Positions 1 through 48,065 of a stretch of 55,470 nt of DNA are shown here, in pieces; within the stretch, counting starts at the first letter, position 1, and each line of letters starts with the position of its first letter. A program made the position numbers and the translations under genes. The notes under the pieces are model-generated. The model was not told the origin of the DNA. It was given only the letters and a program-made list of their open reading frames with translations, and searched no databases. The stretch lies in contig CADBYH010000008.1 in the NCBI GenBank assembly GCA_902798815.1, forward strand, positions 1 to 55,470, written 5' to 3'. The DNA comes from an uncultured Erysipelotrichaceae bacterium. Lineage in GTDB: Bacteria; Bacillota_I; Bacilli_A; RF39; UBA660.

Positions 1-97
1 CTATATTAGCAATAGTTGCATAACCTATACCTAGAGTTATTACAGCAATAAGTACATATATTACAATTTTTATTTGTTTTCTATTACCTAATCTCAT
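1..97 (-). CDS. Partial exported protein, N-terminal 32 residues
   Basis: Only the start of this gene lies in the window; it continues beyond base 1. An ATG at 97..95 follows the Shine-Dalgarno sequence AGGGAG. The readable product begins MRLGNRKQ and continues into a hydrophobic stretch (IVIYVLIAVITLGIGYA), so it has a basic N-terminus followed by a signal-anchor or signal peptide. The ending resembles signal sequences of small exported proteins in this lineage, but the mature part is missing, so no function is given. It has its own promoter-like sequence downstream of the terminator of the preceding gene. Confidence 0.6.
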   Translation of the reverse strand, partial: MRLGNRKQIKIVIYVLIAVITLGIGYATIANI

Positions 98-119
98 AAT
101 AATTCTCCCTATTATATGT

Positions 120-128
120 ATTATATCA
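120..128 (-). promoter_or_regulatory. Extended -10 promoter element for the partial exported protein
   Basis: Read on the minus strand the sequence is TGATATAAT, a consensus -10 with an upstream TG, about 23 bases before the ATG at 97. A second TATAAT lies at 111..116. No good -35 was identified. Confidence 0.45.
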
Positions 129-147
129 TATTTAGATTATTGCTATT

Positions 148-173
148 AAAAAAAGCAAGTGTTTTACACTTGC
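148..173 (-). terminator. Intrinsic terminator of the five-gene operon
   Basis: Eight-base stem (155-162 with 166-173), three-base loop and a U-run in the minus transcript (148-154). It sits just after the stop of the PLP-enzyme gene. A similar GCAAGT-type stem recurs after the VanY-type gene near 30450. Confidence 0.85.
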
Positions 174-182
174 CTTTGTAAA

Positions 183-1427
183 TTATATTATTCTTTCTAG
201 TGCTTTCATCAAACCTAGTTTTCCATAATCATATGTTAGTGAACCTTGGAAGTATGCAATATATGGTTCTCTTAATGGTCCGTCACATGATAATTCAATT
301 GAAGAACCTTGGGTAAATGATCCACTTGCCATTATTACTTGATCATCATATCCTGGCATATCTGATGGCTCTACTACAGCATTTGAATCTATTGCAGACC
401 CTTGTTGGACACCTCTTGTAAATTCTATTAGTTTATTTCTATCTCTAAAGATTATATTTTGAACAATATCTACTCTTTCTTCATTATATTTTGGTTCTAC
501 ATCATAGCCTAATTCTTCTAATACTTTTGATACTAATATAGCAGTTTTTACTGCAGATGATATTACTGATGGAGCTAGATAAATTCCTTGTAGTAATTGT
601 TTGTTTATTCCTAGAGATGGACCTACTTCTCTTCCTTCTCCTGGTAGTGTTAATCTTTCTGCACATAGTTCAATCAATTCTTTTTTACCAGCAATATAGG
701 CACCATTTGGAGCTATTCCTCCACCTAGATTCTTTATTAATGAACCTACCATTATATCTGCTCCTACTTCTGTAGGTTCTTTTAAAGACACTAATTCGCA
801 ATAACAATTATCTACCATTATAATTATATCTTTATTAATCTCTTTAATTAATTTAATGACTTTTTCTATTTTATCAATACTTATACTTTTTCTTGTAGAA
901 TAACCTTTACTTCTTTGAATTTCTATTACTTTTACTTTATTAGTATTTAGATATTCTTTTATTCTTTCATAATCAAAATCATTATTTACTAAATCAATTT
1001 CATCATATTTAATCCCATAACTTTTTAGGGAACTGTTATTTTCTTTTATTCCTATTACTTCATGTAATGTATCATAGGGAGTTCCTGAAATACTTAGTAA
1101 TAAATCGTTCGGTCTTAATAATGCGAAGAAACATACATTTAAAGCGTGAGATCCTGATATAAATTGATTTCTTACTAATGCATCTTCACTACCTAAAATA
1201 TCACTAAATACTTTTTCTATTGTATCTCTTCCTAAATCATTGTATCCATAACCGGTTGTTTCATTAAAACAAGATTCTGATACATTATTCTTATGGAAAG
1301 CATTTAATACTTTTATACTATTTAGTTCAGTTATTTTATCAATTTTTTTAAATTCTTCTGTAAGTTCATCTTCACATTTATTAACTAAATTTGAGACTTC
1401 TTCACTTATTCCTAATTCTTTATACAT
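183..1427 (-). CDS. Methionine gamma-lyase family PLP enzyme (YnbB / aluminium-resistance type)
   Basis: The 414-residue protein looks like a fold-type I PLP-dependent enzyme of the YnbB family, often labelled cystathionine beta-lyase-like or aluminium resistance protein. Recognisable parts are NQFISGSHALN near residue 86, a Ser/Lys segment GSLIKNLGGG near residue 230 that should hold the PLP-binding lysine, and the family-typical LPGEGREVGPSLG near 266. Length is normal for the family. The true substrate is not known; C-S lyase activity is a family-based inference. It is the last gene of an operon with a short-chain dehydrogenase 14 bases upstream and is followed by a strong terminator. Confidence 0.82.
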   Translation of the reverse strand: MYKELGISEEVSNLVNKCEDELTEEFKKIDKITELNSIKVLNAFHKNNVSESCFNETTGYGYNDLGRDTIEKVFSDILGSEDALVRNQFISGSHALNVCFFALLRPNDLLLSISGTPYDTLHEVIGIKENNSSLKSYGIKYDEIDLVNNDFDYERIKEYLNTNKVKVIEIQRSKGYSTRKSISIDKIEKVIKLIKEINKDIIIMVDNCYCELVSLKEPTEVGADIMVGSLIKNLGGGIAPNGAYIAGKKELIELCAERLTLPGEGREVGPSLGINKQLLQGIYLAPSVISSAVKTAILVSKVLEELGYDVEPKYNEERVDIVQNIIFRDRNKLIEFTRGVQQGSAIDSNAVVEPSDMPGYDDQVIMASGSFTQGSSIELSCDGPLREPYIAYFQGSLTYDYGKLGLMKALERII

Positions 1428-1441
1428 TATTTCACTACTTT

Positions 1442-2182
1442 CTAATTGTATTTTCCACCATCTATTCTAATTATAGAATCATTAATATAATTTGCTTTTG
1501 AAGATGACAAAAATATTACTAAATTAGCTATCTCTTTTGGTTCTGCAAATCTATTCAATAATATTTTTTTCTTTTCTTTAGCAATTTGTTCTATACTTAA
1601 TTCTTTGTTCATTGGAGTTTTAACCCAGCCTGGACAGATACAATTTACATTTATAAACGGAGCAAATTCTCTGGCAAAGTTATGTGTTAAAGAAATAACT
1701 CCTGCTTTTGAAGCATCATAGTCACAGCTTTCTGGATAATATGTATCAATAGCATTTGTTGATGAAATATTAATTATTTTTCCACGTTTTTTTTCTAACA
1801 TTACTTTTCCTACATATTTACTACATAGATATGTACCTATTAAATTTACATCTAGTACTCTTTTAAATTCTTTAATATTTTTATCAAGTAATAAAGAATC
1901 TCTTGATACACTAGCATTATTAACAAGAATATCTATTCCACCAAATGTATCTGTTATCTCATTAATCATATTCTCTACTTCTTCTTCTTTAGAAATATCA
2001 CATTTTATAGTAAGAACATCTACATCATATTCTTCTTTAATATGTTTTTCTAAGTCTTTTGCCTCTTTTTCATGGTGACAGTAGTTTATTATAACATTTA
2101 CATCTTTTTTTGCAAACTCTTCTACTATTGCTGCACCTATTCCTCTATTACTTCCTGTTACTAAAGCAACTAATTTTCCCAT
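1442..2182 (-). CDS. Short-chain dehydrogenase/reductase (FabG-like)
   Basis: A 246-residue classical SDR. The Rossmann motif TGSNRGIGAAI lies near residue 9, the NNAS motif near 88, the catalytic Ser in NISST near 140, and the YxxxK pair in YDASKAG near 155-160. The C-terminus has the PG...TPMN pattern and ends DGG. Such proteins reduce a keto group with NAD(P)H; FabG (3-oxoacyl-ACP reductase) is the closest label, but no other fatty-acid gene is near, so the substrate is open. It follows GGAGG and is in an operon with the thioredoxin-like gene upstream and the PLP enzyme downstream. Confidence 0.85.
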   Translation of the reverse strand: MGKLVALVTGSNRGIGAAIVEEFAKKDVNVIINYCHHEKEAKDLEKHIKEEYDVDVLTIKCDISKEEEVENMINEITDTFGGIDILVNNASVSRDSLLLDKNIKEFKRVLDVNLIGTYLCSKYVGKVMLEKKRGKIINISSTNAIDTYYPESCDYDASKAGVISLTHNFAREFAPFINVNCICPGWVKTPMNKELSIEQIAKEKKKILLNRFAEPKEIANLVIFLSSSKANYINDSIIRIDGGKYN

Positions 2183-2192
2183 ACTTCCTCCA

Positions 2193-2636
2193 TTATTCTA
2201 CTATTGTTTCATTTGTTTCTATAAAATTATTTATTTGTTCTTCTGTTTTAACTTTTACAATTGAAGATACCATTTTACCATCTTTGATATACATTATAGT
2301 TGGTTTTTCCACATCATGTTCAGATGATGATATTTTCTTTAAAAAAACTTTATATTGAGTTTCTTTATCAGTGTTTAATTCCATATAATATATATTATTT
2401 TCTTTAAAGATTTCTTTTATTCTTTTACACTCTTTACAACTATTATCATCTATTAATACATACAATGTTTCATTATTATTAATTGCTTTAATAACTTTAG
2501 AATCTTTTACTGAAAATTTATTTACTAAAATTATTAAAAATAGACCTCCAAATAATAATATAACTAGTATACCTATTTTTAATCTATTAAATAAGCTTTT
2601 TAAATCTTCATCATCATCAGAAATCAATTTACTCAC
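2193..2636 (-). CDS. Membrane-anchored thioredoxin-like protein with a CKEC motif
   Basis: A 147-residue protein with a short acidic cytoplasmic N-terminus (SDDDEDLKSLF), one membrane segment at about 20-41, and a thioredoxin-like domain carrying CKEC in DDNSCKECKRIKEIF. This resembles the CxxC site of thioredoxins, with the unusual dipeptide KE between the cysteines. The domain probably faces outside and could reduce or oxidise disulfides. Start choice is uncertain: GTG at 2636 lies almost on top of the GGGAA ribosome site, while a TTG at 2627 has better spacing. It is in an operon behind the 757-residue repeat protein, six bases downstream. Confidence 0.65.
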   Translation of the reverse strand: MSKLISDDDEDLKSLFNRLKIGILVILLFGGLFLIILVNKFSVKDSKVIKAINNNETLYVLIDDNSCKECKRIKEIFKENNIYYMELNTDKETQYKVFLKKISSSEHDVEKPTIMYIKDGKMVSSIVKVKTEEQINNFIETNETIVE

Positions 2637-2641
2637 TTCCC

Positions 2642-4915
2642 TTATTTAGTATTATTCTTTTTCTCTAATTCTTTTTTTCTTTCTTCAAAATATTTTCTCG
2701 ACCAACCAAATACAGAATTAAACCTATTATCTTCTGTTATTAATTTTTCATTAATTCTTGATATATATATTTCTCTTTCAATAATTTCATATAAAGTTAA
2801 TTTTAAAATACCTGGACTATTAATAACTATATCTAAACAGCCTTTTCCTTTTAAGTATTCTAATATACCTTGAAGATGTTTTTTTGAATATATAACTATT
2901 TGTGGTAATAGGAATTTATCTCCATAATATCTTTTTATAAATTCCATTGTTTCTTCAAGTTCTTTTGCACTTTTTCTAAATACCGTACCTGTTATTGGAA
3001 CTTTATAATATAAACATGTTTCTAAAATATCATGTACTTCTTCTGGTTTTTTATTAAAGAAATTATTTGTTGGAGGTGTATTTAGTAACTCCATACTAAT
3101 ATTATAAATAGCTTCAATCTCTTTTCCTGTTCTTTTAAATACTGTACCTGTTGGAGCAATATTTAATCGTTCACAAGTATTTACTACATCAAGAAAATCA
3201 TCTTTATTTTTTCTAAATACATTACCTTTTACAGGAATATTTTTTTCAAGACAAATATCTATTATTTCTCTTACTTCAATTGGTTTTCTTTTAAACATTC
3301 CATCTATATAATTTATTTTATATTCATCACATATTTCGAGTATTTCTTCTATCTCTTCTTTTGTTCTAAATAGCATTGTATTATTTAATGGAATATTCTT
3401 TTCTTTACATAGAAAAAGTATTTTTTCTAGATTTTCAGGGGTTCTTTGAAAAATAGATCCTGTTATTTCTATATTATTGTTTTGACATATTTTTATAATT
3501 TTTTCTACTTCTTCTGGAGTTCTTATAAATATATTTAAAAATACTTCTATTTTATTTTTTTTACATATATCTACTATTTGTCTTAATTCTAATGTTGTCC
3601 TTGATAAGGCTGTTGGTGTAAAAGGAATATTTAATCTATTCAATGTTGTGCATGTTTTTTTTAAGTCCTCTGAACTTTTTTTAAATAGGCCTCCTGTAAT
3701 TTTAATATTATGTTGTTTGGCAATTTTTATTATTTTTCTTACTTCTTCTGGTTGTTTATGAAACATTGAAGTATTTAATATAATTCCTTCTTCTTTACAA
3801 ATATTAACTATTTCTATTATTTCTTTTGAATTTCTATAAAAAATTGATCCTTCTTTTTCAATATTTAATAATTCACAAAGTTTTAATATTTCTTCTAATT
3901 CTTCACTATTTCTTTTAAATAGACTTCCTGTTATTTTCTTTACTTTATATTTTTTTGATATGTTTATTATTTTTTCTACTTCTGTTGCGGATTTAGAAAA
4001 CATTGATTCATTAATTTCTACTTTTAATCTATTACAAACTTCTATTATTCTTTCAATTTCTTCTGGTGTAGTTCTAAACATACTTAAACTTACTTGTATA
4101 TCATTTGCTTCACATATATTAATTATTTCTTCTATTTTTTTAGGATCTTGTCTAAATACTACTCCAACTATATCAAAATTATTTTCTCTACATGTATTTA
4201 CTATATTTTCAAAATCTTCTAAAGGGCAACCATACATACTATTAGTTATTTTAATATTATTTGTTTGACAATAATCAACTAGTTTTTTTAAATCCTTTAA
4301 ATTTTTATGAAATACACTTCCTGTTATTTCAATATTATTAGCAAGACAGTATTCAATTATTCCAAGTACCTCTTCTTTAGGTTGTTTAAATATTGTACTT
4401 GTTATAGTTACTTTATATTTTTTACATAAATTTATTATTGATTCAATTTCTGATATACCTCTATTTGTTATTGAAACGCCAAGTATAGTTTTAGAATCTA
4501 AATCTTTTGAAAATAAATTATTAATTGTTTCTATTCTCTTTTTAGGGATTCTAAGAATAGTTGTATTTTTATCTATTAATTCTTTTCCAAAGTTACTATA
4601 TACATATTCATATGTTTCTTTTAAATCATTTTCATCTGTTGCGAGAATATGAAGGCATGTTTCTATATTATAGTTATAAATATTTTTTTCTTTTAGAAAA
4701 GAATAATTGTTTTTTACTGATTTTACTTTTCTGTATAAGATACTGGGACACTTTTCTATATTTTTTGGACTTATATTTAATTCATTTATTAAATAATCTA
4801 GGATATATTCAACTTCTTCTAATCTTGCTTTTTCAAGAATTTGTTCTCTTCTTGATTTAGTAAATTTTATATCATATTTTGATAATATTTTTAAAAGTTC
4901 TGTACTATTATTCAT
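2642..4915 (-). CDS. 26-residue repeat array protein with mTERF-like caps
   Basis: A 757-residue soluble protein I cannot assign to a named bacterial family. Residues 1-151 form an N-terminal helical part containing ISPKNIEKCPSIL, which reads like an mTERF motif (helix, conserved Pro, Leu). Residues 152-676 are about twenty units of 26 residues (two have 27, the last 29) with the pattern R/K-x-P-E-E-L/V-E-x-I-I-x-I-C-K-x-x-N-I-x-I-x-G-S-x-F-K; Cys at unit position 13 is nearly constant and positions 19-22 vary. The C-terminal part includes INSPGILKLTLYEI, again mTERF-like, and a basic tail. The array should fold as a helical superhelix; nucleic-acid binding is inferred only. It overlaps the upstream small mTERF-like gene by 8 bases. 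Confidence 0.75.
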   Translation of the reverse strand: MNNSTELLKILSKYDIKFTKSRREQILEKARLEEVEYILDYLINELNISPKNIEKCPSILYRKVKSVKNNYSFLKEKNIYNYNIETCLHILATDENDLKETYEYVYSNFGKELIDKNTTILRIPKKRIETINNLFSKDLDSKTILGVSITNRGISEIESIINLCKKYKVTITSTIFKQPKEEVLGIIEYCLANNIEITGSVFHKNLKDLKKLVDYCQTNNIKITNSMYGCPLEDFENIVNTCRENNFDIVGVVFRQDPKKIEEIINICEANDIQVSLSMFRTTPEEIERIIEVCNRLKVEINESMFSKSATEVEKIINISKKYKVKKITGSLFKRNSEELEEILKLCELLNIEKEGSIFYRNSKEIIEIVNICKEEGIILNTSMFHKQPEEVRKIIKIAKQHNIKITGGLFKKSSEDLKKTCTTLNRLNIPFTPTALSRTTLELRQIVDICKKNKIEVFLNIFIRTPEEVEKIIKICQNNNIEITGSIFQRTPENLEKILFLCKEKNIPLNNTMLFRTKEEIEEILEICDEYKINYIDGMFKRKPIEVREIIDICLEKNIPVKGNVFRKNKDDFLDVVNTCERLNIAPTGTVFKRTGKEIEAIYNISMELLNTPPTNNFFNKKPEEVHDILETCLYYKVPITGTVFRKSAKELEETMEFIKRYYGDKFLLPQIVIYSKKHLQGILEYLKGKGCLDIVINSPGILKLTLYEIIEREIYISRINEKLITEDNRFNSVFGWSRKYFEERKKELEKKNNTK
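2888..4462 (-). repeat. About twenty tandem 78-bp coding units
   Basis: These encode the 26-residue repeats of the 757-residue protein. DNA identity between units is low but the protein pattern and length are well kept, with only units 7, 18 and 20 departing from 26 residues. This argues for old duplication with selection on the fold, not recent slippage. Confidence 0.85.
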
Positions 4916-5183
4916 TTACTATCTCCCAAAGATTTGTATCTTGTTCTAACTTTTCTATAAATTCTACTCCTAGTTTATTTATTAAATAGTCTATTTTTTC
5001 TTTAAATTCATTTTCTTCAATAATAAAAAGATATGGATAAAGAGCAACTATATCATAAACATCTGAAAATCCTATTTTACTAAGATAATTTATATTATTT
5101 GTTAGGTTTTCGACGTTGTCTTTAAATTCATAAATAGAACTTTCTCCATAAATAAATGATATTTTTTCTAAGTCCAGTTTCAT
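4908..5183 (-). CDS. Small mTERF-like helical protein
   Basis: A 91-residue protein starting MKLDLEKISF. The segment INYLSKIGFSDVYDIVALYP followed by YLFIIEENEFKEKIDYLINKLG matches the layout of mTERF repeats: L-x-x-L-G-F, a helix, a Pro and a second helix. It may be a stand-alone piece of the larger repeat protein downstream, with which it overlaps by 8 bases, so the two are probably translationally coupled. I chose the second ATG because GGATGGTG lies at proper distance from it; an upstream ATG at 5195 lies inside that ribosome site. Function unknown. Confidence 0.65.
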   Translation of the reverse strand: MKLDLEKISFIYGESSIYEFKDNVENLTNNINYLSKIGFSDVYDIVALYPYLFIIEENEFKEKIDYLINKLGVEFIEKLEQDTNLWEIVNE

Positions 5184-5239
5184 ATAAAACACCATCCTAT
5201 GATAATTTTACTATAAATAGATTAAAAAATAAAGTGTTC

Positions 5240-5266
5240 AAAAAAAGCCAGTACTAATTGTACTGG
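5240..5266 (-). terminator. Intrinsic terminator after the proline-rich protein gene
   Basis: Seven-base stem CCAGTAC/GTACTGG with a five-base loop and a run of seven U in the minus transcript, just after the stop at 5273. It separates the proline-rich pair from the repeat-protein operon. Confidence 0.9.
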
Positions 5267-5272
5267 TAATAA

Positions 5273-6214
5273 TTAAAATTCTGGTTCTACAAAATCTTGT
5301 TCTTCATAATTTGGTTCTTCTGGGATTTGTTCTTCAGAATCATCTTGATAATCATCTTCATCATCTTTTTTCAATCTTTTTGTGACAACATAAGTTCCTG
5401 CTCCTGCTGCGGCAGCTAATCCTGCTCCTGCAACATAAAGACCTGCATTACCTCCACTCTTTTGTGTTGAACCACTACCCGGTTGTGTTGGCGTTGGTGT
5501 TGGTGGTGAGATTGGTCTAATTGGTTTTGTAGGTGTTGGTGTGATTATAGGTGTTGGAATTGACGGTGTTGGTGATGCTGTTGGTTGTGGTGGAGTTGGT
5601 TCTGCTGGAGGTGTTGGTTCTGGTTGTTGTGGTTGTGCTGGTTCCTGTCGTTGTGGTTGTTGCTGAGGTTGAGGTTCTGGTTGAGGTTCTGGTTGTGGTG
5701 GAGTTGGTTCTGCTGGAGGTGTTGGTTCTGGTTGTTGTGGTTCTTCTGTTGGAGTTGGTTCTGGTTGAGTTGATTTTAGTTCCTCATATAATTTTTTAAA
5801 TTTTTCTTCATCCTCATCAGATAATTGTCCATATAAAACTTGTATTAGTCCATCCTCGTCTGCTTCTGTTGTTGATAAAAGTCCTCCTAATACAATGCTT
5901 TCAAACATTGCTTTCAAATCCTCTGGCTCATATTCATTTGCTTCAATTATGTCCTTTAAATAGTCAATTCTTTTTAATATATCTTTTTCATCTTCATAGC
6001 TTTGATCCATTAATTTTTCTGGCATAGACATATCTATTAACTTATCTTCTTGTAGTACATAATCAAATCCTGTTGCATGATATGTTTTCATTACACCGCT
6101 ATATAATTTTTTATCTACTTCTGTAAGATCTGTTTCAATATCTTGTAAAAGTGTTATTGCATCTTTTACTTTTTCTTTGTCATATATTAATTCTGCATGT
6201 TCTGTATTTTCCAT
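5273..6214 (-). CDS. Proline-rich wall-spanning-type protein with C-terminal membrane anchor
   Basis: A 313-residue protein in three parts. Residues 1-147 are helical and acidic with no signal peptide. Residues about 148-250 are a Pro/Gln/Glu-rich spacer in which QQPEPTPPAEPTPPQP occurs twice. Residues about 257-279 form one membrane helix (Ala/Gly-rich), followed by the basic KRLKKDD and an acidic tail. By the positive-inside rule the tail is cytoplasmic and the N-terminal domain outside, which would need an export route other than an N-terminal Sec signal. There is no LPxTG sorting motif. It follows the 128-residue helical protein by 16 bases. Function unknown; a secreted or surface role linked to a type VII-like system is a guess. 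Confidence 0.6.
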   Translation of the reverse strand: MENTEHAELIYDKEKVKDAITLLQDIETDLTEVDKKLYSGVMKTYHATGFDYVLQEDKLIDMSMPEKLMDQSYEDEKDILKRIDYLKDIIEANEYEPEDLKAMFESIVLGGLLSTTEADEDGLIQVLYGQLSDEDEEKFKKLYEELKSTQPEPTPTEEPQQPEPTPPAEPTPPQPEPQPEPQPQQQPQRQEPAQPQQPEPTPPAEPTPPQPTASPTPSIPTPIITPTPTKPIRPISPPTPTPTQPGSGSTQKSGGNAGLYVAGAGLAAAAGAGTYVVTKRLKKDDEDDYQDDSEEQIPEEPNYEEQDFVEPEF

Positions 6215-6230
6215 AATTATCCCTCCTTAC

Positions 6231-6617
6231 CTATTCTTCATCTTGTTTTATATTATCTCTCTTTTTTTGTTCTTTTGATTCAGCATTTTTTGCTCTTTCA
6301 TTGTATATACCTTGTTGTTTATTTAATACTTTTTGGGCAGTTGTTTCAATAGTTTCTGCTAAATCTTTTAGATAATTAGAAAAGAATAATATTTCTACTT
6401 TATATGCTTCTACAGTTTCTTCCATACTTAATCCATCAAATGATAAAGTCTCTTTATTACATATTTCTTCTAATTGAGTTATTTTTTTTGTTATTTTTTT
6501 TAATTGTTCTGATGCTTCTTTGATTGTCTTACAACCTTCTTTGATTGTGGCAATATCAATTAAATTTGTAGCGTCATCTGCTGATACATATTTTCCTTTA
6601 TATATATTAGTAACCAT
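6231..6617 (-). CDS. Small helical protein, possible type VII (WXG/LXG-like) partner
   Basis: A 128-residue, almost entirely helical protein without signal peptide or membrane segment. Two long helices are separated by the turn SFDGLSMEE near residue 58-66, the arrangement of ESX/LXG small partner proteins although the exact WxG is absent. The C-terminus is charged (ERAKNAESKEQKKRD). It starts at an ATG behind AGGAGA and is followed 13 bases after its stop by the proline-rich membrane protein, so the two probably act together. Two WXG-like genes near 32 kb support some kind of type VII-like export in this organism, but no EccC/YukB ATPase is in the window. Confidence 0.45.
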   Translation of the reverse strand: MVTNIYKGKYVSADDATNLIDIATIKEGCKTIKEASEQLKKITKKITQLEEICNKETLSFDGLSMEETVEAYKVEILFFSNYLKDLAETIETTAQKVLNKQQGIYNERAKNAESKEQKKRDNIKQDEE

Positions 6618-6668
6618 TTTTTATCTCCTATCTTTATATAATTATATCATAATAATTGAATACAGATA

Positions 6669-6694
6669 AAAAAAAAGCATTTTAAAATGCTTTT
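6669..6694 (-). terminator. Intrinsic terminator of the ileS operon
   Basis: A perfect 14-base palindrome GCATTTTAAAATGC (6677-6690) with A- and T-runs on both sides, directly after the ileS stop. It can act in both directions. Confidence 0.9.
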
Positions 6695-9600
6695 TTATTT
6701 TATTCTTTCAACATCTATATATGTTTCTTCATCATTTAGATTATATTTAGTTTTTAAAGAAATATCTTTTATTAATTCATCACCTAATACTTCTCCCATA
6801 ATATAATCTTTATATAGTTTAAACATTTCATCTATTTTGTCTGTTCCATTATAGTATACTTTAATGTGATCTGTAATAACAAAATCTTTTTCTTTACGAA
6901 GTGCTTGAACTGTTCTTACAAATTCTCTTGCTAGTCCTTCTAAGATTAATTCTTCTGTTAATTCAGTATCTAAGACAACAATTGTTTTATTATTAGAAGT
7001 TGAAGCATATCCTTCTTTTTGTTTTATTGAAACTATAGTATTTTCACTATTTAATTCAAAATCTTCTCCGTCTAATTTAATACTTAGACCATTTTCTGCT
7101 ATTTTAGATATTTCTGCTGATGTTAATTTAGATAGAACTTGTTGTAGTTCTTTTATTTTTGGACCTAGTGTTTTTCCTAATACTTGGAAGTTTGGTTTTA
7201 CTATATACTCTAGATATTCTGTCATATCTTCTTTAAACAATACTTCTTTTACATTTAATTCTTCTTTAATTACTGGTAATAAATCTCCAATTATTATTTC
7301 ATCACTTTTTGGAAGAATTAAATTACTGATTGGTTGTCTTACTTTTATATTTGCTTCTTCTCTAGCAAATCTTCCCAATGAACAAACATCTCTTACTAAA
7401 TCCATTCTTTCTTCTACTGCTTCATCTATTAAAGTTTCTTCTTCATTTGGATAATCTGCAAGATGTACTGATTTTTCATTTGTCAATTTGTTGTATATTT
7501 CTTCTGTCAAGAACGGTGTAAACGGAGCGCATAATTTACACAATGTAACTAATGCTTCATACATAGTTAAATATACTGCCTTCTTTGATTCAGTTAGTTC
7601 AGAGTCCCAGAATCTTCTTCTATTACTTCTGATATACCAATTTGATAAATCATCGTTTAAGAATGGTACTACTAGTTTAACTGCTTTATTTAAATCATAT
7701 TCTGCAAACGCTTCATTTACTCCTTTGATTAATTTATTTAACTTAGATATTAACCATCTATCTATTAGTTCTCTTTTTTCTACAGGAATATCATATTCTC
7801 TTGGATCTATATGATCTGCATTTGCATACATTTCAAAGAATGAATAAGCATTCTTAAATGTTGAAATATATTTTGAATAAATTTCTTTTAATCCATCCAC
7901 ATCAAATTTTAATGGTGTCCATACTGGAGATGTGTGTAACATATAAAATCGTACTGTATCTGCGCCATATTCTTCCATAATTTCAAATGGTGAAATTGCA
8001 TTTCCTCTTGATTTATGCATCTTTTGACCATATTTGTCTAGTAATAAATCATTTACTAATACGTTTTTATATGATGATTTTCCCATTACAAACATTGATA
8101 CTACAAGTAATGTATAGAACCATCCTCTTGTTTGATCTATTCCTTCAGCAATGAAATCTGCTGGAAATTGTTCCTCAAATAATTTTTTATTTTCAAATGG
8201 ATAATGGTATTGGGCAAATGGCATAGATCCTGAATCGAACCAGCAATCCATTACATCTTTTACTCTTGTCATTTTCTTTCCACATTTTGGACATTTGATA
8301 TGAACATCATCAACATATGGTCTATGTAATTCAATTGTTTCATCTATTTCTTCTATTGCTCTTTTTACTAGTTCTTTTCTTGAACCAATCATTTCATCAT
8401 GACCACATGAACATCTCCATAATGGAATTGGAGTTCCCCAATATCTATTTCTTGATATTGCCCAATCATTCATATTTTCTAACCAGTTACCAAATCTTTT
8501 TTCTCCAACATAATCTGGATACCAGTTAATCTTTTTGTTTTCTTTGATTATTTCATCTTTTTTAGCTGTTGTTTTTATATAAAGTGATGGTTTTGAATAA
8601 TACACTAATGGTGTATTACATCTCCAACAATGTGGATAATCATGGTTCATTTTTTGTTTTTTGAACAACTTATCTTCACTTGCTAGATATTTAACTATTT
8701 CAACTTCCAATTCTGAATCTACTACAAGTCTACCTTTCCAAGGTCCTTCTGTATAACATCCATCTTCTCCTACAGGATTTAGAATTGCTAAGTCATATTT
8801 TAAACCAACTTCATAGTCATCTTGTCCGAAAGCAGGTGCTATATGTACTATTCCAGTACCATCTTCCATAGTTACATATTCATCACAAGTAACAATAAAT
8901 GCCTTTTTATTTTCTGGTACTGATAGAATTGGCATTAATTGTTCATATTCTCTATTTTCAAGATCTTTTCCTAGATACTCTTCAACTATTTCATAATCAT
9001 CACCAAGAATTTTATCTGCCAATGCCTTTGCTACTATAAAGTTATAACCTTTTGATAAACATTTTACATATTTTTCTTTTGGATTTACACATAGTGCTAC
9101 ATTTGACATTAATGTCCATGGAGTTGTTGTCCATACTAAATAATAGGTATTATCTTCATCTTTTGCTTTAAATGGAACAAATACTGTATTTACTGATATT
9201 TCTTTATAGCCTTGAGCAACTTCATGAGATGCAAGTCCTGTTCCACATCTTGGACACCATGGAACTATTTTTAATCCATCATAAATATATCCATCATCAA
9301 ATATCTTTTTAAGTATCCACCATTCTGTTTCAATATAGTTATTATCATATGTTACATATGGATGTTCTAAATCAATAAACTGACCCATCTCTTTAGTAAA
9401 TTTTGTAAAATACTTTTCATTTTGAAAGACGCTATCGCGGCATTTTTCATTGAATTCTTTTATTCCATATTTTTCAATATCACCTTTACCAGTAAACTTT
9501 AATTCTTTTTCTACTTGTAATTCAACTGGTAATCCATGTGTATCCCAACCTACTTTTCTTACTACTCTATATCCTTGCATAGCTTTGTATTTACAAATGG

Positions 9601-9793
9601 TATCTTTTATTAGTTTTGCCATCATATGATGTATTCCTGGCATACCATTTGCTGTTGCTGGACCATCATAAAATACAAAGTTTTCTTTTCTTTGTTTGAT
9701 ACTTTTTTCAAAGATTTTATTTTTATCCCAATAATTTACATATTTTGATTCTATTTCATTTACTTTTCCTTTTTCTAGTTCTTTAAATTTCAT
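6695..9793 (-). CDS. ileS: Isoleucyl-tRNA synthetase, type 2 with GIHH motif
   Basis: IleRS charges tRNA-Ile. The 1032-residue length and N-terminal wording (FYDGPATANG, GWDTHGLPVE) fit the type 2 (eukaryote-like) class, not the usual shorter bacterial type 1. The class I signature that is normally HxGH reads GIHH (residues 53-56). The KMSKS site reads KMHKSRGN. A zinc-type CPKC pair lies near residue 485, and the anticodon-binding region begins ERMDLVRDVCSLGRFAREEA. I start at the ATG at 9793: AAGGAG lies 8 bases before it, while a GTG at 9802 lies within the ribosome site. The antiporter gene and an Ile T-box precede it, so starvation for isoleucine should raise expression. Confidence 0.95.
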   Translation of the reverse strand: MKFKELEKGKVNEIESKYVNYWDKNKIFEKSIKQRKENFVFYDGPATANGMPGIHHMMAKLIKDTICKYKAMQGYRVVRKVGWDTHGLPVELQVEKELKFTGKGDIEKYGIKEFNEKCRDSVFQNEKYFTKFTKEMGQFIDLEHPYVTYDNNYIETEWWILKKIFDDGYIYDGLKIVPWCPRCGTGLASHEVAQGYKEISVNTVFVPFKAKDEDNTYYLVWTTTPWTLMSNVALCVNPKEKYVKCLSKGYNFIVAKALADKILGDDYEIVEEYLGKDLENREYEQLMPILSVPENKKAFIVTCDEYVTMEDGTGIVHIAPAFGQDDYEVGLKYDLAILNPVGEDGCYTEGPWKGRLVVDSELEVEIVKYLASEDKLFKKQKMNHDYPHCWRCNTPLVYYSKPSLYIKTTAKKDEIIKENKKINWYPDYVGEKRFGNWLENMNDWAISRNRYWGTPIPLWRCSCGHDEMIGSRKELVKRAIEEIDETIELHRPYVDDVHIKCPKCGKKMTRVKDVMDCWFDSGSMPFAQYHYPFENKKLFEEQFPADFIAEGIDQTRGWFYTLLVVSMFVMGKSSYKNVLVNDLLLDKYGQKMHKSRGNAISPFEIMEEYGADTVRFYMLHTSPVWTPLKFDVDGLKEIYSKYISTFKNAYSFFEMYANADHIDPREYDIPVEKRELIDRWLISKLNKLIKGVNEAFAEYDLNKAVKLVVPFLNDDLSNWYIRSNRRRFWDSELTESKKAVYLTMYEALVTLCKLCAPFTPFLTEEIYNKLTNEKSVHLADYPNEEETLIDEAVEERMDLVRDVCSLGRFAREEANIKVRQPISNLILPKSDEIIIGDLLPVIKEELNVKEVLFKEDMTEYLEYIVKPNFQVLGKTLGPKIKELQQVLSKLTSAEISKIAENGLSIKLDGEDFELNSENTIVSIKQKEGYASTSNNKTIVVLDTELTEELILEGLAREFVRTVQALRKEKDFVITDHIKVYYNGTDKIDEMFKLYKDYIMGEVLGDELIKDISLKTKYNLNDEETYIDVERIK

Positions 9794-9810
9794 ATTTATC
9801 ACTCCTTTTA

Positions 9811-10761
9811 TTATGCAAATACTACGTAACTATAATATGCTAAAAATAATATTAAAAATATAATTCCTTCTGTTCTTGTAATTTTATAATCATTAAACGA
9901 AAACATAAATAATAATACTGATGCTACTAACATTACTATTAAATCTATGTAACTAAATGTTATTACTGGTATTCCTCCAAATATAGCAGTTGGTATACCT
10001 ATTACCATACCTATATTGAATATATTACTTCCAACAACATTACCAATAGCAATATCATACTCACCTTTTTTAGTTGCAGTTACACTTGTTGCAAGTTCTG
10101 GAAGGGATGTTCCTAATGCGATTATTGTTAAGGCAATCATTCTTTCACTTACTCCTAATATTCCTGCAATGTGTGTTGCAGAATCAACAACAAAGTTACT
10201 TCCTAAAACTATTCCTGCTATTCCACATATTGTATAAATAATTGCTTTCCATATAGGTAGTACATTTGATTCATCCTCTACTTCAACCTTTTTTCTAGAT
10301 ATACTTATTAAGTAATATATAAATACCATAAAGAAAAGTACTAATATTACTCCATCACTTCTTGAAAACGAATTAACTGCTCCTTTATCAAACAAGTTAT
10401 CTGATAAAAGGACTGCAAAAAGTGTTGATATTAATAATGTAATTGGTAATTCTTTTTTAACAGTCGCACTTTTTACATTCAATGAATGAATTAAAGAAGA
10501 TATTCCAAGTATTAATAAAATATTTAAAATATTACTACCAATAACATTTCCTAATACTATATCACCAGAATTTGATAATAATGATTTAATCGATACAGCA
10601 AATTCTGGAGCACTTGTTCCAAAAGCTACAATAGTTAATCCAATTAATATTTTTGGTACTTTAAGGTTTTCTGCTATTCCACTAGCACCCTCTACAAATA
10701 TATCAGCACCTTTTATTAAAATAACAAATCCTATCGTTAATAAAATAATATTTATGATCAT
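9811..10761 (-). CDS. Calcium/sodium antiporter (CaCA family)
   Basis: A 316-residue membrane protein with two homologous halves. Each half carries an alpha-repeat: GTSAPEFAVSI near residue 47 with GNVIGSNILN, and GTSLPELATSVTA near 217 with GNVVGSNIFN. These acidic Pro-Glu motifs are the ion-binding signature of YrbG/NCX-type exchangers. About ten membrane segments are visible. It would exchange Ca2+ for Na+ or H+ across the cytoplasmic membrane. It lies directly between the Ile T-box and ileS, with a 17-base gap to the chosen ileS start, so it is the first gene of the T-box operon, an unusual place for an ion antiporter. Confidence 0.9.
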   Translation of the reverse strand: MIINIILLTIGFVILIKGADIFVEGASGIAENLKVPKILIGLTIVAFGTSAPEFAVSIKSLLSNSGDIVLGNVIGSNILNILLILGISSLIHSLNVKSATVKKELPITLLISTLFAVLLSDNLFDKGAVNSFSRSDGVILVLFFMVFIYYLISISRKKVEVEDESNVLPIWKAIIYTICGIAGIVLGSNFVVDSATHIAGILGVSERMIALTIIALGTSLPELATSVTATKKGEYDIAIGNVVGSNIFNIGMVIGIPTAIFGGIPVITFSYIDLIVMLVASVLLFMFSFNDYKITRTEGIIFLILFLAYYSYVVFA

Positions 10762-10795
10762 AACTCCTCCTTATTCATTTTATGAACTTATAAAT

Positions 10796-11011
10796 AAAAA
10801 AGAACTATTCATCCTAAGGACGAATAGTTCGTGGTACCACCTTATTTTATAAGTAAATAACTTATCTTAAAAAACTATAACGCGTCACCGTATTTATCTT
10901 ATCCATAAATCGCAACTTGAAAGTGATCTGAATATTTCTTTGTAATCTATTTTCACCTCACATAGACTCTCTACATACTCCAAAATATTCCGTCTTTCGC
11001 ACCTGCTTTCG
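10796..11011 (-). promoter_or_regulatory. T-box riboswitch, isoleucine (AUC specifier)
   Basis: On the minus strand the T-box core AAGGTGGTACCACG (10843..10830) is followed by a terminator (stem 10802-10810 with 10822-10830, then U-run). Stem I pairs GAAAG (10998..10994) with CTTTC (10923..10919) and GAATATTT (10990..10983) with AAATATTC (10937..10930). The 3' bulge between them is AGATCA, placing AUC, an isoleucine codon, followed by A in the specifier position (10927..10925). AGAGAG and GGTGAAA of the upper stem are also present. It should turn on the antiporter-ileS operon when tRNA-Ile is uncharged. Confidence 0.93.
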
Positions 11012-11017
11012 AGGATT

Positions 11018-11046
11018 AATATATCATATCTTTCCATTTTTTTCAA
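11018..11046 (-). promoter_or_regulatory. Promoter of the T-box leader
   Basis: On the minus strand TTGAAA (11046..11041), a 17-base spacer and TATATT (11023..11018) preceded by TGA. The -35 sits just past the stop of the upstream gene. Confidence 0.65.
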
Positions 11047-11049
11047 GAA

Positions 11050-12120
11050 TTATCCAGAATATTTAAAATCAAAAATATCACCATCTGATAATTCGTCATT
11101 ATTTAGCGCCATCAAATATATTGTTTCATCTGTACAGGTAACAACTATACATTCTTTTGGATGACCAGCAGTTGATGAGTCTTGAGCAAAATCATGAGTT
11201 GTTTTTGACCAGGAACATCCTTTTCCATCTAATACTGCAGTTTTATCTCTATTAATTATCAAATTATCATAAACAATCTTTTCTACTGCTGTATATTTTC
11301 CATATTTTAATGTTTTTCCTTCTACTGTAAATGTATTATTAGTTTGTTCTTGCTTCTTTTTTTCTTCTTCTTGTTTTTTCTCTTCCTCTTCTTTTTTCTT
11401 TTCTTCCTCTTGTTTTTCTTTTCTTTCTTTTTGATATTTTTCAGCAGATTCTTTTACTTCTTTTTGTGTTATACCATTATCTTTTAATAATTCTTTATTA
11501 GTAAAACTTGCTTCATTTAATTCATTGGCAGATACTTCTTTCTCTTTTAGATAATAAAATGTTGCATTTTCAAAAAATACTCCCTCATTATACTCATTTG
11601 TAATTACATAATAATCATTATCAAAGTTCTCTGATGTAACTAAAGTATCTTTATCAGAAATAATTGTTCTATCATCACCATATTCTATTGACCAATAGTT
11701 TTCATCATCTTTTATTGAATATACGTATTTTAAACTATCAAAAGAATTTGCAGGATATGTTTCTTGATAGTCAATAGATTTATCTTTCATATCTACATCT
11801 AATTGAATAAATATCTTGTTTTTTTCATCTTCTGCATATACAACTAATTCTTTGTCATTATCTGAATCTATATCTATTCCCATTAGTTTTACATATTCAG
11901 GTTCTATTTCGTATTTTAATAATCCAGTTTCAATTCTTTTATTTAAAGATCCATCTTTGGCTCTTTTTGAAACAATATCTCCAAATGTATCTTTTTCCTT
12001 TGGTTTCTTTTTATCTTTTTTAAATATAATTAAAATACTTGTTATTAATATTGCGATTACTAATACAACAATTATTGAAATAATTACTATTTTCTTTTTT
12101 GATAATTTTTTCTTTTCCAT
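11050..12120 (-). CDS. Membrane-anchored protein with Lys/Glu coiled coil, unknown
   Basis: A 356-residue protein of unknown function. A Lys-rich cytoplasmic N-terminus (MEKKKLSKKK) leads into one membrane helix at about 10-32. The outside part has a domain up to about residue 215, a Lys/Glu/Gln-rich coiled segment at about 220-260, and a compact C-terminal domain of roughly 95 residues beginning FTVEGKTLKYGKY that contains two cysteines (DGKGCSW and KECIVVTC). It has its own RBS AAAGGAG and follows the divIVA-domain gene. Position near division genes is suggestive only. Confidence 0.7.
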   Translation of the reverse strand: MEKKKLSKKKIVIISIIVVLVIAILITSILIIFKKDKKKPKEKDTFGDIVSKRAKDGSLNKRIETGLLKYEIEPEYVKLMGIDIDSDNDKELVVYAEDEKNKIFIQLDVDMKDKSIDYQETYPANSFDSLKYVYSIKDDENYWSIEYGDDRTIISDKDTLVTSENFDNDYYVITNEYNEGVFFENATFYYLKEKEVSANELNEASFTNKELLKDNGITQKEVKESAEKYQKERKEKQEEEKKKEEEEKKQEEEKKKQEQTNNTFTVEGKTLKYGKYTAVEKIVYDNLIINRDKTAVLDGKGCSWSKTTHDFAQDSSTAGHPKECIVVTCTDETIYLMALNNDELSDGDIFDFKYSG

Positions 12121-12140
12121 AGATACTCCTTTAAATTAAA

Positions 12141-12158
12141 AGTAGACTATTGTCTACT
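12141..12158 (-). terminator. Hairpin at the end of the sepF-divIVA operon
   Basis: Seven-base stem AGTAGAC/GTCTACT with a four-base loop overlapping the stop of the DivIVA-domain gene. The U-rich tract is interrupted, so termination may be partial. Confidence 0.6.
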
Positions 12159-12588
12159 CTTCTAATTCTAATATTTCTATTTCTTCTACAACAGCCATTT
12201 GTTGTTCCATTATAAGTTTTAGTTTTCTCTTAAATATTTTCATATTTTTTTCTAGCAGGTCTCTTTGTTGGTTTATTTTTTCAGCTTTTAGTAATGCTTC
12301 ATTAACTATTCTTGATGCATTGTGTCTTGCATTGTCTATTATTATGTCACTTTCTTCTCTGGCAATTCTTCTTATCTCTTCACCAGTTGAAGTTGATTTA
12401 ATAATCGCATCATCTATAGTGCTTTTCATATTTTTATAATGATTCAATTCTTTTTTTAATTCTTGAATTTGAATATTTTGCGTTTTAACTCTTGATAAAA
12501 TTACTTCTGTTTCTTTTATGACATCACTAATAAACTGATTTACTTCACTACGATTATATCCATTAGTCTCATAACTAAATTTTTCCAT
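12154..12588 (-). CDS. DivIVA-domain protein
   Basis: A 144-residue coiled-coil protein. The start MEKFSYETNGYNRSEVNQFI is the DivIVA N-terminal membrane-curvature domain pattern (F...GYxxxEVxxFI), normally preceded by a few more residues. The rest is a long coiled coil ending in acidic residues. DivIVA-family proteins mark negatively curved membrane at poles and septa and organise division or wall growth. It follows sepF by 25 bases, the arrangement seen in many Gram-positive division clusters, although the ylm genes normally between them are absent here. It could be GpsB-like, but the length and coil favour DivIVA. Confidence 0.85.
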   Translation of the reverse strand: MEKFSYETNGYNRSEVNQFISDVIKETEVILSRVKTQNIQIQELKKELNHYKNMKSTIDDAIIKSTSTGEEIRRIAREESDIIIDNARHNASRIVNEALLKAEKINQQRDLLEKNMKIFKRKLKLIMEQQMAVVEEIEILELEE

Positions 12589-12613
12589 ATAATCACCTGC
12601 TTAAGGTTATATT

Positions 12614-13051
12614 TTAGAAAAAGTCTTCATCATCTTTTTCTTTATTATCTTTTTTGTTTCTTGCTTGTTTTTCTTGAGATTGGTTTCCTTGTTCTTCGCT
12701 TATTTTTCCATCTACTTTAACATTATTAGGAGTACATAGGAATATTCCTCCACCTAGTTTTTGAATATCTCCACTTATTGCATAAATTGTACCATATAAA
12801 AAGTCTACAATTCTTTTTGCTTGATCAGGGGTTACTCTTTTTAAATTAACAACTACTGCACTTCTATTTTTTAAATAGTCTGCTATTTGTTGACTTTCTG
12901 AATATGCACGTGGCTCTAGTAAAACCATTTTTGATCCAGCTATACCATTTTGTTCATGATAATCTTCTTTTGAAGTTGTGTAGTATTCATCCTCTTGTTG
13001 TGTTTGTTCACTTGTGTCTCCTCCAAAAAAACCTCTTAACTTATCTTTCAT
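12614..13051 (-). CDS. sepF: Cell division protein SepF
   Basis: A 145-residue protein. SepF assembles into rings, tethers FtsZ to the membrane and helps septum formation. The N-terminal [11 protein letters not shown] is the amphipathic membrane-binding helix. The core at about 38-120 reads [45 protein letters not shown] and [13 protein letters not shown], all typical of SepF. A Lys/Gln-rich tail follows. It heads an operon with the DivIVA-domain gene and has RBS AAGGAG. Confidence 0.95.
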
Positions 13052-13165
13052 AACAATTCTCCTTTTTATCTATATTAACATTAAAAATCTAAATAATTCA
13101 TATATATGCTATTTCAAATAATATTCTATCATATATTCAATAAAAGAAAAAGAGTAAATTAGGAA

Positions 13166-13208
13166 AAACAAAAAAACCATTATTTTTTTTTACATAAAAC
13201 AATGGTTT
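13166..13208 (-). terminator. Intrinsic terminator in the AT-rich gap
   Basis: Stem AAACCATT/AATGGTTT (13174-13181 with 13201-13208) with a long loop, followed by a U-run in the minus transcript. Second of two terminators placed about 350-440 bases after the stop of the HerA-type gene. Confidence 0.65.
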
Positions 13209-13214
13209 CTTTAC

Positions 13215-13251
13215 AAAAAAAAATAGATTAAGATTCATGATCTCTTAATCT
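13215..13251 (-). terminator. Intrinsic terminator in the AT-rich gap
   Basis: Nine-base stem AGATTAAGA/TCTTAATCT (13225-13233 with 13243-13251) followed by nine U in the minus transcript. It implies that minus-strand RNA reaches this point, through the AT-rich stretch 13252-13608. Confidence 0.75.
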
Positions 13252-13608
13252 AGGTTTTTAAAATAATTTATTAATTGGCCTATTAATTAATTATTTTTTA
13301 AGTTTTCCTTCTTATTTTACAATATTGTATAGTTTCAATAATAATATTTTTCTTTTATATATATTTTTAATATCGTTAAATATTAATTGTATTTCCTTTT
13401 ATATATAATTATATTTCAATCATTAATATTATTAATATAAATAAATTTATATTTATGGTATTAATCAATATATTTATATATATTTGGTTATACTTTTATA
13501 TATAAAATATTTTTCTTACTATTGATATGTTAATTTTATATTATGAATTATATTTTGTCAACACAAGTCAAATAAATATGTTTACTAAATGTAAAGTTTT
13601 ACATCTTT
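13252..13608. other. Extremely AT-rich non-coding stretch
   Basis: I see no credible gene in these roughly 350 bases. The composition is far more AT-rich than the surroundings. It contains an inverted repeat (14-base arms at 13262-13275 and 13282-13295, one mismatch, loop TGGCCT). It may be a long 3' untranslated region of the HerA-type gene, a small RNA locus or a protein-binding AT-rich island. Confidence 0.5.
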
Positions 13609-15573
13609 TTACAGCGGAAGTACATAATCAGGTAATGGAGTTGATGGTGCAACTTGTTGTGGTTGAGTGTAAGTCGCATTATTCACTTCTTTACTTAAAA
13701 GAACATTAACATCAACGTGATCAGAATCTGTAAGTATTTCTTGTTGTTCTTGACTTGTTCCTTGTTCCATTGGTTGTTGAATATTTTGATTTACTTCTGG
13801 ATTTTCTGTTGCATACCATACTGTATCTAAATCAACGTTATTTGATAATGGTCTTGGATTTGGTATATCAATATACATTGATGTTGGAACTTTAAATGCA
13901 CTTCCGAAAGCAATACAATTTCCTGGTTTTAGGTTTTTCAATTGAAGTACTATTTCTGATGAAATATTTGGAACCATTTCTTTTATATATTTTAAATCCA
14001 CTGGATGCATAGTTCTCAAAATTATAAAGTTTGCACATTGGGATACACATGTATCTGATAATTCACTAGGTCTTTGAGTTATCAATCCTAAGAACATACC
14101 ATATTTACGTCCCTCTTTAGCGATTCTTTCAAAAATGTTATATCCAATTATATCAATATCTTTATCATGTTGAACATATCTGTGTGCCTCTTCAATAATA
14201 ATATGATATGCTTGACTACCTCTTGCTTTTTCAGTACTAGTTTTTAAGAATAGCATTCTTGATATTATTTTTGTTATTATTTTAGCAATTCGATCATCAA
14301 CATAATTTATATTAAAATTAATAATTTGGGCTTTTTGATTTGTTTCCTTTATGGTTACTAATCTATTGATATATTCATCTCTAGTAATCTTTTCAGGATA
14401 AGAGAAATAATATCTATTTTCTCCTTGAGCTAATGAATGAAGTCTAACGCTCATTACATTTGCAATGTCAAAGACTTTATTACTTTTAAGAATTCCTTCA
14501 CTTATTAAGGCAAAATCCATAGCCTGCTCTAAGTCATTTAAAGTATAGTATGGATTTGCATTTAACTCTTCTTCTGTAATTTCATCATCTATTAAATAAC
14601 TTCTAATAAATTCTACTACAAGTTCCATTTCTTGCATTTTCCCTGTTTTATCAACAAATAAACATTGTTTTAACGTTCTTGTATAACCTGGTTGAACTAT
14701 TTGAGTTTCAAGATTTAGTGTTTGAGTATTAAACTTAGTTAATACACCCATTACTTGGTCTCTTATTTTTGTAGATTCATCTCCACTTAGCATTATATCT
14801 TGAACAGCTCTAGCGATAATATCATTTTTTCTTCTTAATACTTGTTCACTTGTTCCTGACAATATTCGAACTAATTTAAGTGTTTTTTCTAAGATTGGTA
14901 ATTGAGAAGGAGTTGTTGCTTCTAATAATAATGCCAAATCATCTATATCTAATAACCAAACTGGTATTCTTAATAATTCTGTTTTTTCATCATAAATATT
15001 TGTAGTATATACTTTATAATTTAATGAATTGTTTTTTTCATGAAACGTTGAGAAAGCATTTGTATATTCTCCATATGCATCAAAGAAAAACATAGATGAT
15101 TTTACTGGTGGATATGGTCCTAAATATAATTTTTGTAAAATAGAAGCTACTGTACAACTTTTTCCAGCTCCTGTATTTCCAAGAATTGCAAAATGACTGT
15201 TAAAGAATTCATTTATTGCAACATTTATTTTATAACCTGTATATATATTACTTGATCCAAAGTTTGTATAACCTTTTCTAGACTCTTGACTTCCATATAA
15301 TAACTCAAGTTCTTGCATGTTAATTACTTTTATTTTGGATTTAAAAGATGGTTTAACACTACATCCAGGGATAAAAGCATCATTGTTTATTTCTCCAACT
15401 ATATTCGCATACATTGTATTTTTATTTACATTTGCGATCTCTGCTACAACTTTTCTATCAGTATCATCATCAAATATAACATGAAGATTTACCAAATTTG
15501 GTTGTTGGGTAATATCTATTTCTAAATTAATTTTAACAGTATTATCAACTATTTCTTCGATTTTTCCAATCAT
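13609..15573 (-). CDS. HerA-type ATP-binding protein
   Basis: A 654-residue ATPase of the HerA/FtsK superfamily (DUF87 type). Residues 1-110 look like the beta-rich HAS-barrel. Walker A is LGNTGAGKSCT near residue 132. Walker B is AYHIIIEEAHR near 455, and an arginine/sensor region follows (GLITQRPSELSDTCVSQCANFIILR). A Gln/Pro-rich tail ends the protein. HerA proteins are hexameric DNA translocases, usually paired with the NurA nuclease for end resection; no NurA-like gene is adjacent. The RBS GGGAG precedes the ATG. The role in this organism is inferred only from fold. Confidence 0.85.
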   Translation of the reverse strand: MIGKIEEIVDNTVKINLEIDITQQPNLVNLHVIFDDDTDRKVVAEIANVNKNTMYANIVGEINNDAFIPGCSVKPSFKSKIKVINMQELELLYGSQESRKGYTNFGSSNIYTGYKINVAINEFFNSHFAILGNTGAGKSCTVASILQKLYLGPYPPVKSSMFFFDAYGEYTNAFSTFHEKNNSLNYKVYTTNIYDEKTELLRIPVWLLDIDDLALLLEATTPSQLPILEKTLKLVRILSGTSEQVLRRKNDIIARAVQDIMLSGDESTKIRDQVMGVLTKFNTQTLNLETQIVQPGYTRTLKQCLFVDKTGKMQEMELVVEFIRSYLIDDEITEEELNANPYYTLNDLEQAMDFALISEGILKSNKVFDIANVMSVRLHSLAQGENRYYFSYPEKITRDEYINRLVTIKETNQKAQIINFNINYVDDRIAKIITKIISRMLFLKTSTEKARGSQAYHIIIEEAHRYVQHDKDIDIIGYNIFERIAKEGRKYGMFLGLITQRPSELSDTCVSQCANFIILRTMHPVDLKYIKEMVPNISSEIVLQLKNLKPGNCIAFGSAFKVPTSMYIDIPNPRPLSNNVDLDTVWYATENPEVNQNIQQPMEQGTSQEQQEILTDSDHVDVNVLLSKEVNNATYTQPQQVAPSTPLPDYVLPL

Positions 15574-48024: not shown

Positions 48025-48065
48025 TTTGTTCACCTCTTTGAAAAGTATAACAATTTTCACAAAAT

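Follow-up and report, generated by a model that had tools for sequence, protein, structure and literature searches.

The 55,470-nucleotide stretch analyzed here (the window; contig CADBYH010000008.1 of assembly GCA_902798815.1, from an uncultured Erysipelotrichaceae bacterium of the GTDB lineage Bacillota_I; Bacilli_A; RF39; UBA660) carries two overlapping genes on its minus strand. The larger (positions 2642 to 4915) encodes a 757-residue repeat protein composed of an N-terminal cap (N-cap), 19 clean units, and a C-terminal cap (C-cap); the initial annotation had pointed out this open reading frame without stating its strand. The smaller gene (4908 to 5195, minus strand) lies directly upstream, shares 8 bases with the beginning of the large gene, and encodes an acidic mTERF-like protein of 95 residues with an isoelectric point (pI) of 4.3.

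The repeat in the large protein is genuine. When residues 152 to 676 were compared with themselves, offsets of 26 and 52 were the sole peaks (mean BLOSUM62 scores of +1.06 and +0.73), and all other offsets between 15 and 59 scored negative. A chain parse yielded 19 clean units, with starts at residues 153, 179, and so on to 623, 17 of which span 26 residues and 2 of which span 27; the stretch past residue 648 is degenerate and corresponds to the start of the C-cap. The N-cap (residues 1 to 152; 4460 to 4915, minus strand) contains the motif IEKCPSILY and is mTERF-like, with a long helix followed by two short ones. It is followed by the array (residues 153 to 648; 2972 to 4459, minus strand), whose units of 26 to 27 residues are each predicted to form a helix at positions 2 to 14 and a recognition-like helix at positions 21 to 25, and by the C-cap (residues 649 to 757; 2642 to 2971, minus strand), which includes SPGILKL...FNSVFGWSRK and is conserved family-wide. 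We number the unit as T1 P2 E3 E4 V5 ... C12 ... I17 ... T20 G21 S22 I23 F24 x25 K/R26. The initial annotation had counted 20 units; its periodic array holds, but its twentieth unit, of 29 residues, is the degenerate stretch mentioned above. The conserved E-E-L/V, I-I, N-I, and F-K/R positions that it listed are real, as is its Cys13 (position 12 here), although this residue is not fixed, being present in 15 of the 19 units. Positions 19 to 22, proposed as variable (18 to 21 here), do vary; variability and unit specificity are highest, however, at positions 21, 25, and 26 (22, 26, and 1 in the earlier numbering).

An α-solenoid, as anticipated from the repeat, is supported by the AlphaFold2 model of the large protein (mean predicted local distance difference test [pLDDT] score of 90.6), whose nearest solved folds are TALE-like and mTERF-like. 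According to DSSP, each unit of the model consists of a 13-residue helix (positions 2 to 14) and a 5-residue helix (positions 21 to 25). Modules of the mTERF type, each with a long helix and two short ones (H64-76/H81-86/H88-91 and H95-109/H111-116/H118-122), are confined to the N-cap, the array units being two-helix throughout. The top Foldseek match is the TALE-like protein BurrH (E value of 5.4e-7), followed by MTERF1 and MTERF4. In VIA, dHax3 (Z score of 13.0 over 392 residues), MTERF1 (Z score of 10.5), and MTERF4 (Z score of 9.6 over 162 residues, with a root mean square deviation [RMSD] of 4.9) stand out, and the best 50 matches are all either TAL-effector-type chains (natural TALEs, BurrH, and TALE-based editors) or mTERF chains. 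PPR, TPR, HEAT, ARM, and PUF folds are absent from these 50, which does not in itself exclude such folds.

At the sequence level, the relation to mTERF (PF02536) is distant and most visible at the ends of the protein. The initial annotation had described both ends as mTERF-like, and indeed the best PDB sequences for the N-cap profile (A5) are MTERF3 and MTERF4 (E values of 0.003 to 0.008), while hhalign against classic bacterial mTERF proteins gives E values of 6e-4 for the C-cap, which aligns with their C terminus, 7e-4 for the N-cap, and 2e-5 for the small partner. The proposal of an mTERF-style repeat fits the caps and the fold but not the unit, since the mTERF motif has three helices and the 26-residue unit has two; the tandem array likewise does not show the three-helix repeat of about 30 to 35 residues. 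A 1,115-residue paralog totals 26.5 bits against Pfam mTERF, with no independent stretch. The window protein has no Pfam match, at E values up to 1, to PPR, TPR, HEAT, ARM, PUF, or ankyrin repeats, so that the unrelated repeat families that might have explained it (HEAT and TPR) did not emerge, and there is also no Pfam match to the TAL repeat, the unit being 26 rather than 33 to 35 residues long. Other whole-protein matches (FAD_binding_4, SAP_new25, PPS_PS, and others in Pfam; SduA, Cas2, and AbiEii in PADLOC) were discarded: almost none has a stretch that passes independently, and we therefore read them as summed weak repeat matches. Overall, the large protein probably derives from the mTERF fold, with units shortened to 26 residues.

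Classic mTERF proteins are also present in these bacteria. The window's own genome encodes one of 379 residues (153 bits against PF02536), relatives of which occur in 32 of the 39 genomes of the genus, and within the order, 41 of 385 genomes had mTERF matches above the cut-off, whereas the 14 controls had none. At this locus (L141:7568-9999; G000:C1), the classic gene lies on the same strand as genes for a 120-residue acidic mTERF-like protein (pI of 4.4) and an RNase HIII-like protein, the latter assigned by eye from its sequence. The small partner at the classic locus exceeds the PF02536 cut-off (25.4 and 34.6 bits), and this second large/small pair is possibly linked to R-loops or to replication-transcription conflicts. 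Elsewhere in the same genome, a 104-residue frame (G000:C1:24817-25017, minus strand) matches the small-partner profile (E value of 6.6e-6).

If the array reads a ligand, the residues that do so should differ between the units of one protein and yet stay constant at a given unit across species. Among eight orthologs, identities at the same unit versus other units were 0.58 versus 0.08 at position 25, 0.70 versus 0.26 at position 26, and 0.58 versus 0.19 at position 21, compared with 0.22 versus 0.16, 0.29 versus 0.21, 0.21 versus 0.10, and 0.18 versus 0.16 at positions 3, 6, 10, and 16, on the back of the helix. In a bootstrap over units, the intervals for positions 21, 25, and 26 did not overlap those for positions 3, 6, 10, and 13 to 16, and four paralog groups, each drawn from three species, showed the unit-specific pattern again. 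The initial annotation had suggested a residue varying between units and reading a base, and this comparison bears out such variation, with constancy across species, at positions 21, 25, and 26. Position 25 (27 in 28-residue units) also has the highest entropy (3.64 bits; 333 units of 26 residues and 113 of 28) and remains the highest within the homogenized L067 array (2.8 bits) and in L059 (2.7 bits). In L060 (5760-7838, minus strand), the 29-residue units are nearly identical and differ essentially at a single residue (E, T, Q, or G), which corresponds to position 21 when aligned by eye; this array contains an assembly gap of N, and a single position with four states has the look of a code.

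Residues 21 and 25 are predicted to lie one turn apart along the short helix, which position 25 ends just ahead of the long helix (2 to 14) of the next unit. In the 26-residue units, Asp and Glu make up about 1% of residues at positions 25 and 26 versus 38% on the helix back; net charges are +0.34 at position 25 and +0.74 at position 26, and Lys or Arg occupies the latter in about three-quarters of the units. To judge from these patterns, which match the expectation for a solenoid that reads bases, residues 21, 25, and 26 mark a putative ligand-reading, positively charged face.

The small partner is related to mTERF as well. It scores 22.4 bits against PF02536, just below the cut-off of 23.1, and 5 of 16 of its relatives match that family at E values up to 0.1. 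The eight best PDB matches of its profile are all MTERF1 (E values of 7.5e-4 to 3e-3), and its structural model (pLDDT of 86.6) fits MTERF1 with a Z score of 7.7 and an RMSD of 2.8 over 91 residues, so that both proteins of the pair resemble solved mTERF structures in VIA. Small partners are acidic throughout (pI of 4.1 to 4.8), and at nearly every locus their genes adjoin the large one, on its upstream side in the genus and on its downstream side in some other genera. Judged by strong matches, the two genes share an identical presence (14 of the 39 genus genomes). Their site is bounded by ileS and by an unrelated operon, and elsewhere both are missing. In most genus genomes without them, ileS is directly followed by the thioredoxin-like, FabG, and methionine-lyase genes, so the pair is a cassette rather than a fixed part of that operon. 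For the same reason, we rejected a necessary functional link to ileS or to the thioredoxin-like, FabG/SDR, and methionine γ-lyase-like neighbors, as most cassette-less genomes keep that gene order.

Taken together, these data lead us to favor, with somewhat more confidence than doubt, a cassette made of a nucleic-acid-reading solenoid and its partner, most likely acting, as with MTERF1, TALEs, and pTERF, on duplex DNA at about one base per unit. The solenoid would wind along the nucleic acid; residue 26, mostly Lys or Arg, would contact phosphates, and residues 21 and 25 of each unit would read approximately one base, so that the whole target would span about 20 nucleotides. The small acidic protein, translated in tandem, may cap or mask the solenoid and thereby control its loading. 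The cellular role would likely be that of a site-specific transcription roadblock or regulator whose target is conserved within the genus. The nucleic-acid-reading function put forward in the initial annotation, which had overlooked the small partner gene, is thus partly supported.

Several points weigh against this proposal. The argument is computational throughout, and binding is predicted. The large window protein has no Pfam mTERF match at E values up to 1, and the pI of whole large proteins varies from 5 to 9. With a predicted template modeling (pTM) score of 0.51, the large-protein model leaves the overall superhelix uncertain. Z scores near 13 in VIA may reflect nothing but a shared arrangement of helical repeats, and we therefore take the fold matches as support rather than proof. 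A unit-specific face would be equally expected of a solenoid that binds proteins or peptides; because its conservation is ligand-neutral, it does not separate DNA, RNA, and protein as ligands. Moreover, the locus gives no sign of a regulated target, and the capping or masking role of the partner is a guess.

Among the alternatives, it is unlikely, though worth serious consideration, that the solenoid reads single-stranded RNA (mRNA or rRNA) in the manner of PPR proteins or MTERF4, with a role in ribosome assembly or in the stability, processing, or translation of RNA. In both sequence and fold, the mitoribosome assembly factor MTERF4 ranks with the best matches of the caps, and the neighborhood of the classic mTERF pair and RNase HIII in the same genome hints at RNA-DNA biology. 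However, the large gene is missing from about two-thirds of the genus, which does not fit a general role in rRNA biology, the proteins closest in fold bind duplex DNA, and the nearest tested relatives bind double-stranded DNA (dsDNA) (PMC11417379). We give still less credence to a scaffold of the TPR or HEAT kind, whose variable face would bind protein partners, perhaps the small acidic protein(s). The constant presence of one small acidic partner and the lack of a fused nuclease, methylase, or other effector domain would suit such a scaffold, as would the ligand-neutral conservation of the face, but its fold and sequence neighbors bind nucleic acid, positions 25 and 26 hold almost no acidic residues, with Lys and Arg dominating the latter, and the window protein matches none of the Pfam TPR, HEAT, ARM, and ankyrin families at E values up to 1.

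A variant that keeps nucleic acid as the ligand and changes the role is defense, in which the arrays would target phages or plasmids and evolve against invaders. Patchy presence (about seven gains or losses on the genus tree), tandem paralogs with different arrays, and evolution much faster than that of most neighbors all speak for it. Yet the proposed reading residues form the most conserved surface across species, which is the opposite of an arms race; the chromosomal site is fixed, no nuclease is present, no PADLOC match has an independent stretch, and no relatives occur in phages, plasmids, or PHROGs. We regard this role as very improbable. A mobile origin of the cassette was likewise dropped, as no relatives were found in viral contigs, phages, plasmids, or PHROGs.

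To our knowledge, modular sequence-reading scaffolds are few: TALE, PPR/OPR, PUF, and zinc fingers and, recently, STAR and pTERF. If binding is as predicted, the nucleic-acid-reading solenoid would be a new natural scaffold, and a very compact one, for the recognition of nucleic-acid sequence. Like TAL effectors and BurrH (the BAT proteins of Burkholderia/Mycetohabitans), it combines a short helix, an inter-helix corner, and a long helix, and position 25 behaves as the hypervariable corner residue of units that are otherwise constant. TAL effector and BurrH units, however, have 33 to 35 residues; those proteins are secreted or host acting and show no sequence match, and here the caps resemble mTERF and there is an acidic partner. 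With mTERF proteins it shares the layout of the N-cap modules, distant homology of caps and partner, and a nucleic-acid-binding superhelix, and the classic mTERF of this genome is likewise paired with a small acidic mTERF-like protein; in contrast, the mTERF unit has three helices and a period of about 35 residues in bacterial members, and the large protein falls below the curated cut-off. PPR and OPR units, of 35 and 38 residues, offer an analogy of modular reading by two residues per unit, but there is no Pfam PPR match, and neither family is among the fold matches shown.

The closest known system is pTERF, which is described as mTERF-like tandem-repeat proteins of ruminant-gut Bacillota that bind dsDNA sequence specifically, as demonstrated on ACTNNNAGTC with a Kd of 1.87 nM (PMC11417379). 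As presented there, two members have different motifs, the units have three helices and number 3 to 11 per protein, and binding reprogrammable through the arrangement of repeats is proposed; no conserved partner gene is mentioned in the main text, nor are recognition residues of pTERF mapped there (PMC11417379). This 2024 report in NAR, together with the classic mTERF protein of the window's own genome, makes the view taken in the initial annotation, that mTERF proteins are described mainly from eukaryotes, outdated. By these descriptions, both families are mTERF-related tandem-repeat solenoids of gut Bacillota genomes, whereas the present one has a two-helix unit of 26 residues, 19 clean units (arrays of about 19 to 30), and tandem paralogs (PMC11417379). 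It is thus set apart from pTERF by description, although pTERF1 could possibly be a short-array branch of the same family.

In the literature searched, we did not find the 26-residue two-helix unit, the arrays of about 19 to 30 units, the tandem paralogs, the recognition residues, or the cassette with an acidic partner. More tentatively than for the reading function itself, and with doubt prevailing, we suggest a natural scaffold of one unit per base, with a 26-residue unit, residues 21 and 25 beside a Lys/Arg ladder, and up to about 30 units, that acts on the bacteria's own chromosomes and is governed by its acidic partner. It would in principle be programmable like TALEs, and the shorter units, the clean unit-to-unit variation, and the many natural arrays would help to crack its code. 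The family would also link mitochondrial mTERF to bacterial relatives, and it raises the question of what leads small gut bacteria to retain, lose, and multiply these proteins at a single place in the chromosome.

Among the genomes sampled, the family is narrowly distributed. Relatives of the large protein were found in 14 of the 39 genus genomes and in 16 of 291 genomes sampled from the family; the N-cap profile matched 4 of 395 genomes of the class and, among 392 genomes sampled from the phylum, only the window's own, which speaks against a wide distribution, although an alignment query of genome contigs added two loci titled Clostridia/Clostridiaceae. The named relatives are gut metagenome-assembled genomes of uncultured Bacilli, Erysipelotrichaceae, and a few Clostridia. 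Family proteins are about 220 to 1,115 residues long and share their caps, whereas the array differs: most have 26-residue units, and others have 28-residue units with YKDGG, other 28-residue units, or 29-residue units. Array length reaches about 19 to 30 units. One genome carries five tandem copies (451, 759, 809, 1,115, and 947 residues), an arrangement partly retained in two related genomes. Three to five tandem large paralogs with different unit types occur at L057 and L058 (G281:C3), L054/L055, and L090, and in L054 and L090 an exported-looking protein of 600 residues lies between them.

The about seven gains or losses of the cassette were counted on a genus tree built from the genes neighboring it. 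Between the window and eight genus loci, identity is mostly 86 to 92% for IleRS and 76 to 87% for FabG, compared with 35 to 56% for the large protein. Two genus members have in common a large protein that lacks the N-cap (L071:11035-12291 and L072:3593-4861). In L072, stop codons interrupt the small gene as well as the stretch homologous to the large gene, and that cassette therefore appears to be decaying.

Immediately before the small gene, a −10-like block, TATAGTAAAATTA (5203 to 5215, minus strand), is conserved in an intergenic alignment of eight species. It has a single exact match in the window, with a one-mismatch count no higher than chance, and is the probable promoter of the cassette. 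A terminator-like hairpin of the intrinsic type (5248 to 5266, minus strand) separates the cassette from the upstream genes; as shuffled sequences yield 0.9 such hairpins for the 1 found, it is weak evidence alone, but block and hairpin together suggest that the cassette has its own promoter. We also considered the conserved TATAGTAAAAT block as an operator; it resembles an ordinary promoter but may be either. No Rfam match to a structured RNA was found near the locus (bases 1 to 14000). Between ileS and the cassette, positions 5273 to 6617 (minus strand) encode a Pro-rich protein of 313 residues with a C-terminal membrane segment and a coiled-coil-like protein of 128 residues; this gene pair has no relatives in the other loci compared. 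After the cassette lies the gene for a small membrane-anchored thioredoxin/glutaredoxin-like protein with a CxxC motif (2193 to 2636, minus strand), which is very fast evolving (28 to 47% identity) yet found in most genomes, whether or not they carry the cassette.

Farther along the window, two genes encode HerA-type (DUF87) ATPases (13609 to 15573 and 46174 to 48060, minus strand). A 2,541-residue protein (22732 to 30357, minus strand), large relative to a genome of about 1.5 Mb, combines Glycoamylase, GH94 supersandwich, and GH94 catalytic domains, like cyclic β-1,2-glucan synthases.
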